A stretch of DNA of 64,000 nt from Natronolimnobius sp. AArcel1 (lineage in GTDB: Archaea; Halobacteriota; Halobacteria; Halobacteriales; Natrialbaceae). This document shows positions 42,783-47,231 of the stretch, piece by piece. The notes below the pieces were generated by a model. It was given only the letters and a program-made list of their open reading frames with translations, was not told the DNA's origin and did not search any database. Numbering within the stretch: the first letter of the stretch is position 1; every line of letters starts with the position of its first letter. The position numbers and the translations under genes were made by a program. The stretch is taken from positions 682,001 to 746,000 of the forward strand of contig NZ_JAAKXY010000003.1 in NCBI RefSeq assembly GCF_011043775.1. The letters are read 5' to 3'.

Positions 42783-43253
42783 TTACAATCCCTCGAGCGA
42801 GCGCAACTTCTGTTCGACCGCCGGTGGGGCGGCGCTTGGGCCGTCGCGGACGCGGTGATCAGGAATCAAGATTGGCGCAGGGTTTTCGTCGAGGGCCGTC
42901 CGGACCAGAATCAGGTCGTCGTCGTCCTGATGGTCGATGCCTGACGTCATTCGGGCGAGCGTCTCGACGCCGACCTGATCACCGTAGGGGATCTGGCGAA
43001 CCTGCTCTAACACCGCGCGCTGGTCCGTTGGCATGGTCAATGCGATCTGTACGTCATCGAAGGAAACCTCCTCGACACCCTCGAGATAGTCGAAGATCTG
43101 CTCGAGAACCGGATGCTCGTCCTCGCTGTCTCCCTCGGGTGTCTCGGGGAATGTGACTCGGAGTACGCGCCCGCTTGCGGCCCCAACCTGTACGTAGCGG
43201 TCGAGATACGGTGATTTGCGCGCGTATATTCCGGCGTCCGTAACCTCGTCCAT
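42783..43253 (-). CDS. MGMT-fold alkyltransferase-like protein lacking the active cysteine
   Basis: ATG 43253 gives 156 residues. The C-terminal half is the DNA-binding domain of O6-alkylguanine transferase: RAVLEQVRQIPYGDQVGVET, then VRTALDENPAPILIPDHRV. The catalytic PCHRV is PDHRV at 131-135, so Asp132 replaces the alkyl-accepting Cys. No other Cys exists in the protein. It may act like ATL proteins, which bind alkylated guanine and recruit nucleotide excision repair, in which Trp or Ala replaces Cys. Divergent from the trp operon. Confidence 0.85.
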   Translation of the reverse strand: MDEVTDAGIYARKSPYLDRYVQVGAASGRVLRVTFPETPEGDSEDEHPVLEQIFDYLEGVEEVSFDDVQIALTMPTDQRAVLEQVRQIPYGDQVGVETLARMTSGIDHQDDDDLILVRTALDENPAPILIPDHRVRDGPSAAPPAVEQKLRSLEGL

Positions 43254-43327
43254 GACAGGGGGTAGCGCATCGGGCCTTGAATAGCCGCCGGTCGTCACTC
43301 GCCCCCAGCGCGACCGAATGGCGCAAG

Positions 43328-43361
43328 GCTTTTGTACATATGAGTACGTCGATGTACAACA
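43328..43361 (+). promoter_or_regulatory. trp operon promoter with three GTAC cores
   Basis: TGTACA occurs at 43333-43338 and 43353-43358; between them lies GAGTAC (43342-43347). The GTAC cores begin at 43334, 43344 and 43354, exactly one helical turn apart. With TTGTACA and TGTACAA the outer two form a 7-bp inverted repeat with a 14-base spacer. The trpC ATG is at 43362, so the sites span the TATA-proximal and initiation region. TGTACA is the TRP box of Methanothermobacter TrpY. No regulator gene is adjacent. Confidence 0.65.
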
Positions 43362-44168
43362 ATGAACTCCGAGACGGACCTGGCGCCCGCGGTGGCGTCG
43401 ATCCTCGAGGCGGCTCGCACGCGAGCGGGCGGTGACGAGGCACTCGACGTCGACGCGCAGTCGCTCCCCGACGCACTCGAGCGGGCCGAGGCGGACGGCC
43501 GCGTCCCCGTGATCGCGGAAGTAAAACCGACGAGTCCGACCGCAGACGGGACCCGGGAGGACGACCCCGTCGAACTCGCCGAAGCGATGGTCGAGGGCGG
43601 CGCAGCGGCGATTTCGGTGCTGACCGAACCGAGCCACTTCGGCGGCTCGCCCGAGGCACTCGAGCGCGTTCGCGAGGCCGTCGACGTGCCCGTCCTCCGC
43701 AAGGACTTCGTCGTTCGCGAGGCCCAGTTGGACGTCGTCGACGCCGACCTCCTCCTCCTGATCGTCCGATTCGTCGACAATCTCGAGTCCCTTATCGAGG
43801 CTGCCCGCGAGCGCGGCTTCCAGCCCCTCGTGGAGGTGCACGACCGCGCGGAACTCGAGACCGCACTCGAGGCAGGCGCGGAGATAATCGGCGTCAACAA
43901 CCGGGATCTGGCGAAACTCGAGGTGGACCTCGAAACCTTCGAGTCCGTTGCGCCCGAAGCCCCCGAAGACGTGACCCTGATCGCCGAAAGCGGCATTTCT
44001 TCGCCCGCGGACGTGCGCCGGATGCGCGAGGCGGGCGCTGACGCCCTCCTGGTTGGCAGCGCCATCATGGACCACGGCGCGGCCGACAGCGACGTAACGG
44101 AGAACACGCGGCGACTGACGCAGACGGAGTCCGCCCCGACAGCCGCCGACGGCGACAGCGAAGACTGA
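43362..44168 (+). CDS. trpC: Indole-3-glycerol phosphate synthase
   Basis: This 268-residue TIM-barrel enzyme shows [76 protein letters not shown] and [12 protein letters not shown]. It closes the ring of CdRP to indole-glycerol phosphate, step four of tryptophan synthesis. The Lys of EVKPTSPT and of LRKDF and the Glu of LTEPSHF are catalytic. First gene of trpCBA; the transcript appears leaderless. Confidence 0.94.
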
Positions 44169-44174
44169 TTTGAT

Positions 44175-45452
44175 ATGAGCAAGACCACACCAGACCACGA
44201 CCGCGACCGCAACCGTGAGCGCGACAGCGAGGCGACGTTCGGCGACTACGGCGGCCAGTACGTCCCCGAGGCGCTGATGCCCGCCTTGCAGGAACTCGAG
44301 GACGCCTACGAGCGCTACGTTTTAAACAATGAAGACGGCTTCATGGACGAGTTCCGCGAGCGAATGCGTGATTTCGGCGGGCGACCAACGCCCTTGCAGC
44401 GCGCGGATCGACTCAGCGAGCGCTACGACCGCGAGATCTACCTCAAACGCGAGGACCTTGTCCACGGCGGCGCACACAAACTCAATAATGCGCTCGGGCA
44501 GGTCCTGCTCGCGAAGTACATGGGCAAAGAGCGGATCATCGCCGAGACCGGCGCGGGTCAACACGGCACCGCGACCGCGATGGCCGCCGCGCATCTCGAC
44601 ATGCCCTGTGAAATCTACATGGGCCGGACGGATATCAACCGCCAGCGCCCGAACGTCTACCGGATGCGGATGAACGGCGCGGCGGTCAACCCCGTGACGG
44701 CCGGCAGCGGGACGCTCAAGGAAGCGATCAACGAGACGATGCGCGACTGGGCGACCACGGTCGAGACGACCCACTACGTCATCGGCAGCGTCGTCGGCCC
44801 ACACCCGTTCCCGAAGATGGTTCGGGATTTCCAGGCCGTCATCAGCCAGGAAGCGCGAAAGCAAATTCAGGAGCAAGCAGGTCGCCTCCCCGATACCGTC
44901 GTTGCCTGTGCGGGCGGCGGCTCGAACACGATGGGGACGTTCCACGAGTTCGTTCCCGATGAGAGTGTGGACCTCGTCGCCGTCGAAGCCGGCGGCTCGA
45001 GTCTCGAGATCGACGAAGAGGCGAATCTCGCACCTAACTCGGCGACGCTTTCGACGGGCACCGACGGCGTGCTCCACGGCGCGATGACGAAACTCCTCCA
45101 GAGCGAGGACGGCCAGATCGTCGAATCCCACAGCGTGAGCGCGGGACTGGACTACGCCGGCGTCGGTCCGGAGCTCTCGCATCTCGTCGCGACCGACCGC
45201 GTAACGCCCGCAAGTGTCGACGACGACGACGCGCTCAACGGCTTCCATCGTCTCTCGAATCTCGAGGGGATTATCCCGGCACTCGAGTCCTCGCACGCAC
45301 TCGGATACATCGAGGAACATACGGACGATCTCGGCGACCTCGTCGTCGTCAACGTCTCCGGCCGGGGCGACAAGGATCTGGAAACCGTCCTCGAGGAAAC
45401 CGAGAAACGTGATCTCGAGGCGGCACCGGATGTGGAGGTGTTCAAGGAATGA
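44175..45452 (+). CDS. trpB: Tryptophan synthase beta chain
   Basis: This 425-residue protein carries [20 protein letters not shown], the PLP lysine in [20 protein letters not shown], the Gly-rich phosphate loop [13 protein letters not shown], and [15 protein letters not shown] just before it. It condenses indole with serine to form tryptophan. Length and HKLNNA mark it as the classical TrpB1 type. It follows trpC by six bases and overlaps trpA by four (ATGA), which couples their translation. An acidic N-terminal tail of about 17 residues is typical of halophiles. Confidence 0.95.
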
Positions 45453-46411
45453 GTGACGAGCGTCGAGCGGAGCGAGACTCTCGGGAAACGCGAACGGGGA
45501 GCGACGACCAGGAGCGACCCGTGAGCGACATCGAAGCTGCCATCCGCGAGAACGACCCGGCGCTGATCACCTACATCACCGCGGGCGATCCATCGCTCGA
45601 GGACACGAAAGAATACGTCGAAGCACTCGACCGGGGCGGCTCGGACCTGATCGAACTCGGCTTGCCCTTCTCGGAGCCAATTGCCGAAGGGCCGACGATT
45701 CAGGCCGCGATCAACCGCGCGCTGGATGCGGGGACGACCCCGCAGGGCTTCTTCGAGTTGGTTGACGACCTCGAGACCGAGGCACCGTTGCTGGTGATGA
45801 CGTATTATAATATGATCCTGCAATATGGTACAAGCGAGGCGCATAGCGCCTCGGATAGCCGAGCGGTGGAACCGCGAGGCAAGCCTGACGTTCGGCCGTT
45901 CGTCGAACGCGCCGCAGAAGTGGGCCTTTCGGGACTGATCATCCCCGACCTTCCAGCCGAGGAAGCCGACCCGCTTCGCGAGGCCTGTGACGATCACGGC
46001 CTCGATCTCGTCTTCATCGTCGCGCCGACAACCGAAGGCGAGCGCTTAGAAACCATCATGTCGCAGGTTTCCGGATTCGCCTACGTGCAGGCCCGACTCG
46101 GCACGACCGGCGCTCGAGCGAACGTTTCCGGCGCGACGCACGACAGCCTTGAGCGCCTCTCCGAATTCGACGTGCCAAAGGCCGTCGGCTTCGGCGTTAG
46201 CGAGGGCGATCACGCAGCCGAGATCATCGAAGCCGGCGCGGACGGCGTGATCGTCGGCAGCGCGCTCGTCGACATTATTGCCGAGCACAGTTCGGACGGC
46301 GACGCAGCCGACCGCCTCGAGGCGAAAGCGGCCGAACTCAAACGCGGCGCGCGCCGCGGGGCCGGCGAGGCGGTCGACGCGGAAGACGTACCGGAACCAG
46401 AACAGCCATAA
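45449..46411 (+). CDS. trpA: Tryptophan synthase alpha chain with in-frame palindromic insertion
   Basis: This 320-residue TIM-barrel protein cleaves indole-glycerol phosphate. [38 protein letters not shown] and the phosphate loop [11 protein letters not shown] are family signatures. The catalytic Glu is in ELGLP; the Asp60 equivalent of E. coli is Glu (AEGP). A 17-20-residue insertion (about residues 128-148, [20 protein letters not shown]) sits before [20 protein letters not shown] and is encoded by DNA rich in inverted repeats. The N-terminal 30 and C-terminal 20 residues are acidic and non-conserved. It ends the trp operon; ADH synthase follows. Confidence 0.94.
45835..45879. repeat. Palindromic element inside trpA
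   Basis: CGAGGCGC-ATA-GCGCCTCG (45835-45853) is an 8-bp inverted repeat with a 3-base loop. It is followed by GCGGT-GGA-ACCGC (45863-45875); CTCGG-ATAG-CCGAG (45850-45863) links the two. All of it is read through in frame by trpA. The layout, a palindrome followed by a second one, resembles the pair at 29471-29507 in form though not in sequence. Confidence 0.7.
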
Positions 46412-46436
46412 CTGCAAGCTTGCTACACACCCGCAA

Positions 46437-47231
46437 ATGACGACAGGAACTGACGCACGACTTGACCGCATCGGGACAGACGGAAAATACGTCATCGTCC
46501 CCATGGACCACGGTATCACAATCGGTGCCGTACAGGGACTCAAAGACATCGAATCGACGATTGACGGAATCACGCGCGGCGGCGCAGACGCCGTCCTCAC
46601 GCAGAAAGGAATCGCGCCGCGCGTTCACGAGAACAAAAACGGCAAGGGCTACATCGTTCACCTGAACGGCTCGACGTCTATCGGCCCAGACGAGAACGAC
46701 AAGCGATCGACTGGTACCGTCGAAGACGCCATTCGAGTCGGCGCAGACGCCGTTTCCTTCCACATCAACGTCGGCTCGGACCACGAGCCAGACCAGCTCT
46801 CCCAGCTCGCAGAGGTCACCTCGACGGCCGACCGCTTCGGTATTCCCGTTCTCGCGATGGCCTACGCCCGCGGCCCTGATATCGACTCTGCAGACCCAGA
46901 GGCACTCGGCCACGCCGTTCGACTCGCCGAAGAACTCGGTGCCGATATCGTCAAGACCGGATACAGCGGCGACGCAGACAGTTTCCAGCACGTCGTCGAA
47001 TCGACGCGACTGCCGGTCGTCATCGCCGGCGGCGCACGCGGCACCGACCGCGAGACGATTGAGATGGTTCGTGGTGCAATGGACGCCGGCGGTTCGGGTA
47101 TCTCGATGGGACGCTCTATCTTCCAGCACGAAGACCCCGTAGCGATTTCGACTGCCGTCTCCGGTGTCGTCCACGATGATCTCTCCGTCGATGAGGCGCT
47201 TCGCGAAGCCGGACTCGCACTCGAGGCCTAA
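46437..47231 (+). CDS. 2-amino-3,7-dideoxy-D-threo-hept-6-ulosonate synthase (class I aldolase)
   Basis: ATG 46437 gives 264 residues. IVPMDHGITIGAVQGLKDIE, AVLTQKGIAPRVHENKNGK, DIVKTGYSGDADSFQHVVES (Schiff-base Lys) and ISMGRSIFQHEDPVAI mark the archaeal ADH synthase/FbaB group. It makes the C7 precursor of dehydroquinate from 6-deoxy-5-ketofructose phosphate and aspartate semialdehyde, replacing DAHP synthase in many archaea. A plain fructose-bisphosphate aldolase is the alternative. It follows trpA by 25 bases, and DHQ synthase II is encoded 2 kb downstream. Confidence 0.9.
   Translation: MTTGTDARLDRIGTDGKYVIVPMDHGITIGAVQGLKDIESTIDGITRGGADAVLTQKGIAPRVHENKNGKGYIVHLNGSTSIGPDENDKRSTGTVEDAIRVGADAVSFHINVGSDHEPDQLSQLAEVTSTADRFGIPVLAMAYARGPDIDSADPEALGHAVRLAEELGADIVKTGYSGDADSFQHVVESTRLPVVIAGGARGTDRETIEMVRGAMDAGGSGISMGRSIFQHEDPVAISTAVSGVVHDDLSVDEALREAGLALEA

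Follow-up and report, generated by a model that had tools for sequence, protein, structure and literature searches.

In Methanothermobacter thermautotrophicus, TrpY binds TRP boxes and represses the trp genes; the Thermococcus homologue of TrpY does not regulate trp, and the haloarchaeal homologues are stated to be unexamined (PMC6737238). Tar (TK0271), which controls the trp operon of Thermococcus kodakarensis, is an activator that also acts on the aro and tyr-phe operons and uses a repeated promoter site, TGGACA-N8-TGTCCA, located upstream of BRE/TATA (PMC6737238). Haloarchaea have amino acid regulators of the Lrp type (LrpA1, Lrp and LrpA2), and LrpA2 reacts strongly to the removal of aromatic amino acids (PMC4162585); AT-rich inverted repeats are given as Lrp-type sites (PMC2894021). 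The trp genes are standard genetic markers in Haloferax, yet no regulator has been assigned to haloarchaeal trp in the literature that we found. More specifically, the openly accessible literature searched describes neither a regulator nor an operator for these genes (an earlier prediction may exist), offers no match for TGTACA in the context of archaeal tryptophan, and describes no GTAC site for LrpA1, Lrp or LrpA2.

Results

Promoter and phased boxes of the trpCBA-aldolase operon

We analysed a window of 64,000 nucleotides from Natronolimnobius sp. AArcel1, which carries on its forward strand the genes trpC (indole-3-glycerol phosphate synthase, 43362–44168; Pfam PF00218, E 1.7e-72), trpB (tryptophan synthase beta, 44175–45452; PF00291, E 1.8e-34, with the assignment to TrpB based on operon position and sequence), trpA (tryptophan synthase alpha, 45449–46411; PF00290, E 1.7e-85) and, as the fourth gene of the operon, a DeoC/LacD-type aldolase (46428–47231; PF01791, E 5e-52). 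The gene order is that of Halobacterium trpCBA-OE1472F (PMC4162585), and the aldolase holds the place of OE1472F, the first step of aromatic amino acid synthesis.

Upstream of trpC, a BRE-like element, CGCAA (43322–43326, forward strand), occupies positions -40 to -36, which carry 1.76–2.00 bits in Natrialbaceae and other haloarchaea alike; its placement fits a haloarchaeal BRE. A TATA-type element, TTTT (43330–43333, forward strand), is conserved as CTTWT at -33 to -29 and corresponds to the published haloarchaeal TATA motif TTWT (PMC4983044). The stretch between TATA and start is filled by an array contained in TTGTACATATGAGTACGTCGATGTACAACA (43332–43361), which ends right at the trpC start codon (43362). 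On the forward strand, this array comprises (i) box 1, TGTACA (43333–43338), fused to the TATA-type element, whose G -28 and C -25 are (near-)invariant in haloarchaea; (ii) box 2, GTAC in the context GAGTACGT (43344–43347), with conserved G -18 and C -15; (iii) box 3, TGTACA (43353–43358), with conserved G -8 and C -5. A first-pass annotation of this DNA had placed GTAC cores at 43334, 43344 and 43354, 10 bp apart, and direct reading confirms them, with TGTACA words at 43333 and 43353; the outer inverted repeat that it had described is also present, but its arms are 8 bp long (TTGTACAT, 43332–43339, and ATGTACAA, 43352–43359) and not 7. As the TATA element lies only ~30 bp 5' of the ATG, the trpCBA-aldolase mRNA is probably leaderless, a class that accounts for 72% of Haloferax protein-coding transcripts (PMC4983044). 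Note that box 1 abuts the TATA element, a placement that, on geometry alone, would let binding exclude TBP.

Single TGTACA words occur in the window at a level near chance (7 observed, shuffle mean 4.0, with 13 of 100 shuffles reaching 7). The phased triplet GTAC-N6-GTAC-N6-GTAC is found once in the window and in none of 100 shuffles; the entire 4.56-Mb genome contains a single copy of it, and no copy of a reversed control pattern.

Conservation of the array in haloarchaea

Eighty trpC upstream regions from named genomes were collected, and the analysed sets comprised 51 regions from Natrialbaceae and 25 from other haloarchaeal families. All three GTAC cores are present in 49 of the 51 Natrialbaceae promoters, and within the 60 bp preceding trpC the spacings between GTAC pairs take only two values in this family, 10 bp (99 pairs) and 20 bp (50 pairs). 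In the 25 other haloarchaea, the inner bases of the cores are relaxed, while G -28/-18/-8 and C -25/-15/-5 keep 1.76–2.00 bits and conservation declines upstream of about -46, that is, beyond the BRE. When the best phased GTNC triple is sought in these 25 regions, its position never changes and its score is 4–8 out of 9 (shuffled mean 3.3); outside Natrialbaceae too, the cores stand at a fixed distance from the ATG, in the same 10-bp steps and abutting BRE/TATA. GTNC is the most suitable notation for the haloarchaeal half-site, the two outer boxes reading TGTNCA. Near and remote relatives alike retain the 10-bp spacing, and because of this conservation a chance origin of the triplet is untenable.

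A second array before trpDFEG

The promoter of the unlinked trpDFEG operon (G000:C3:55747-55797, where G000 is the source genome) displays five registers in exact 10-bp steps: GTAC, GAAC, AGAC, GTAC and GTTC. This five-register design is kept across the haloarchaea aligned. The array begins no more than ~10 bp after the TATA element, which lies ~55 bp before the trpD ATG.

A profile built from the trpC boxes only was run over 21 genomes. It ranked trpC first in nearly all of them, with trpD promoters among the next matches; the remaining inspected matches were weak and mostly located within reading frames, and none lay at an Lrp gene. A profile of the trpD array gave a strong match to trpD alone. 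In one divergent genome (G386), the trpC-only profile detected two sites: trpD is immediately preceded by a perfect GTAC triplet, and trpB, within the trp cluster, by an array of boxes. The predicted regulon consists of the two trp operons, headed by trpC and trpD. The first-pass annotation had considered that the same triplets might turn up at many unrelated loci; the genome and profile scans agree that the triplet is not scattered.

A few matches deserve separate mention. G386 belongs to a divergent haloarchaeal family, and its array loci are L207:1501-1529 and L203:1501-1533. In genome G153, the beginning of a LysE/RhtB-type amino acid exporter gene coincides with a weak match (L208:1501-1523, E 0.037) whose three GTCC cores follow one another at 10-bp intervals; this match could be due to chance or mark a third target. 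One weak match lies 70 bp before the tryptophanase gene of another genome (G005, L212); the promoters of eight other haloarchaeal tryptophanase genes contain no array (best triples 3–4, shuffled mean 3.3), so we rejected tryptophanase as a third target and regard this match as probably fortuitous.

Phased GTAC pairs outside haloarchaea

In 32 genomes that belong to other classes of the phylum (methanogens and others), we scanned the trp regions over the 300 bp upstream of the operon start. GTAC pairs spaced by 10, 20 and 30 bp were found 4, 11 and 4 times, respectively (19 in total), against 3 for all other spacings between 5 and 40 bp. Pairs at 10 or 20 bp start 15 times in the 11.5 kb of upstream sequence and 3 times in 594 kb elsewhere. 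Such a pair precedes the trp operon in 14 of the 32 regions, and many of these arrays directly follow a TATA-like stretch; the other 18 regions contain no exact 10- or 20-bp pair, but single boxes, degenerate boxes or none.

A TrpY-family protein in haloarchaea

The absence of a trpY gene next to trpCBA, noted in the first-pass annotation, holds: the source genome encodes its TrpY on another contig (C2, versus C3 for the trp operons). A search for ACT domains retrieved a 167-residue HTH-ACT protein (G000:C2:704997-705485) that belongs to the TrpY family NF053754 of NCBIfam (E 3.1e-70, 235 bits, with a cut-off of 180). The family is represented by a single copy in each of 145 haloarchaea out of 145, and by a protein above the cut-off in 140 of the 148 genomes of the phylum sample. 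Among the residues invariant in 23 members are M1, F9, D54, R55 and R124, D54 and R55 being located, with other invariant residues, in the putative HTH.

The haloarchaeal proteins depart from TrpY in several respects. In TrpY as described in print, W2 is the sole tryptophan of the protein. The sequence starts with MW in 20 of 20 non-haloarchaeal members and with MF in the haloarchaeal members inspected, and the protein from the source genome contains no tryptophan at all. The substitution of F2 for W2 is a haloarchaeal clade-wide change at a position proposed to sense charged tRNA-Trp (L156-L185, L240-L259). Neither in the source genome nor in the haloarchaeal loci inspected is trpY linked to trp genes. 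No GTAC or box was found near the start of trpY in the source genome, and we thus rejected autoregulation of TrpY there. The phylogenetic distribution of TrpY and TrpC in the 145 haloarchaea brings no further information, since both proteins are universal. Family f19 (G267 and G276) has no TrpY-family protein and yields no more than one weak ACT-type match; the 1.2 Mb read of the 2.1-Mb G276 genome revealed no trp operon, and f19 could have lost TrpY and the trp genes jointly.

Discussion

What the sequences show directly is a conserved array that is nearly confined to trp promoters, together with a TrpY-family protein encoded in the genome. Judging from the sequence comparisons, the three GTAC cores are very probably part of a trp-specific DNA operator, and a TrpY-type protein is its likely reader. 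To the complete reading, in which a phased array of TRP-box half-sites would form a trp-specific operator read by a TrpY-type protein that prevents TBP or polymerase from acting at a promoter that is probably leaderless, we would assign a probability of roughly two in three. From these data, we infer TrpY as the reader, repression as the outcome and tryptophan as the signal, in the following mechanism. Helically phased TRP-box half-sites (GTAC here, GTNC across haloarchaea) would fill the space between the TATA element and the start of trpCBA-aldolase, and the same design at the unlinked trpDFEG would constitute a second operator. When tryptophan is plentiful, it would be sensed by the ACT domain of TrpY, and the TrpY-family HTH-ACT protein would then bind adjacent half-sites along the same helix face. 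At each of the two trp promoters, bound TrpY would obstruct TBP/TFB or the RNA polymerase. In keeping with this mechanism, both trp operons of Halobacterium are induced in the absence of aromatic amino acids (PMC4162585).

If the array is a trp operator, its reader might instead be a regulator of the Lrp/AsnC type, such as the equivalent of Halobacterium LrpA2/Trh1, or a different HTH protein. The increase of LrpA2 by 14.9-fold in Halobacterium without aromatic amino acids (PMC4162585) favours such a reader, and so does the lack of W2 in haloarchaeal TrpY. On the other hand, the same box word and phasing are found in methanogen-type classes, where the shared candidate is TrpY, and the inspected profile matches spare the Lrp genes. 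Lrp-type proteins do frequently bind to multiple phased sites, a habit that the array would suit, but in Methanothermobacter TGTACA-type TRP boxes are those of TrpY. The binding of TRP boxes by TrpY is documented in that genus (PMC6737238). We consider a reader other than TrpY rather unlikely.

The two remaining explanations dispense with a DNA-binding regulator. The conserved block might merely combine a strong core promoter with the sequence context of the start codon in a leaderless gene, in which case the GTAC phasing would reflect shared ancestry; the BRE and TATA elements are indeed within the block, and the window contains single TGTACA words at about the frequency expected by chance. 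This explanation, which we hold to be very improbable, is already contradicted by the way in which the three cores keep their G and C every 10 bp amid many variable positions, both between the cores and within them, by the recurrence of the same design at trpD and, flanked by different sequences, in other classes, and by its near-absence elsewhere. That the repeats act in RNA, as an attenuator, a leader peptide or a riboswitch, seems hardly credible, even if the position of the trpD TATA element leaves room for a short leader: the helical phase of 10 bp and the palindromic nature of the GTAC cores are in line with DNA binding, and, given the distance from TATA to ATG at trpC, the first two boxes, and probably the third as well, would lie upstream of or at the transcript start.

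How does the array, read as a TrpY operator, compare with described systems? It shares with the M. thermautotrophicus system (trpY-trpEGCFBAD) a TGTACA beside the TATA element of trp promoters and a TrpY-family HTH-ACT protein in the genome. Unlike in that system, there is no divergent trpY-trpE pair and no box at the trpY promoter, F2 replaces W2 and the targets are two separate operons. A strict 10-bp array and relaxed GTNC cores are further traits, described here from the haloarchaeal side alone. The array is probably of the TRP-box kind by its mode of action, while the trp linkage with autoregulation and the W2 of the original TrpY system are missing. As regards Tar, it is likewise a trp operon regulator acting at a repeated promoter site, but the boxes described here are of the TGTNCA type, 10 bp apart and downstream of TATA; we rejected a Tar-type site as the array differs in both sequence and position.

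The first-pass annotation had read the triplet as the TRP box of TrpY. This reading is sustained by the conserved spacing, by the confinement of the triplet and by the presence of a TrpY in the genome; it is weakened by F2 in place of W2, by the unlinked position of trpY and by the lack of boxes before that gene. Also to be counted against TrpY as the reader are the inactivity of the Thermococcus homologue on trp, the induction of LrpA2 and the 18 of 32 non-haloarchaeal regions without a phased pair, as well as a published remark that regulation of the trpCBA promoter in Haloferax is not tight (PMC13147458).

Altogether, these results point to a candidate regulator of haloarchaeal trp genes, give GTNC as the half-site together with a rule for its spacing, and predict a regulon (the trpC and trpD operons); the array would also illustrate clearly how an operator can be built at leaderless promoters, which have no room for leader-based attenuation. 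They would also extend the methanogen TRP box to the whole phylum. We regard as an even bet the broader proposal of a phylum-wide tryptophan operator, from haloarchaea to Methanosarcina-type methanogens, in which a GTNC half-site array on one face of the helix just after TATA would be read by TrpY-type multimers; haloarchaeal TrpY would have turned its W2 codon into F and be devoid of trp linkage and autoregulation, and control at leaderless promoters would be exerted purely by DNA occupancy.

Finally, the gene divergent from trpC (42783–43253, reverse strand) encodes a protein with the DNA-binding domain of O6-methylguanine methyltransferases (PF01035, E 1.2e-6). It carries PDHR where the active-site motif PCHR is usual, and therefore looks like a non-catalytic, alkyltransferase-like protein. 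Between the two genes lies a CTTGAATA element (TATTCAAG on the minus strand; 43266–43290), a type of element that recurs upstream of trpC in many Natrialbaceae and is here probably the promoter of the divergent gene. Control of this gene by the array was considered and rejected: many relatives keep the array without a CTTGAATA-type element, which indicates that the array belongs to trpC.
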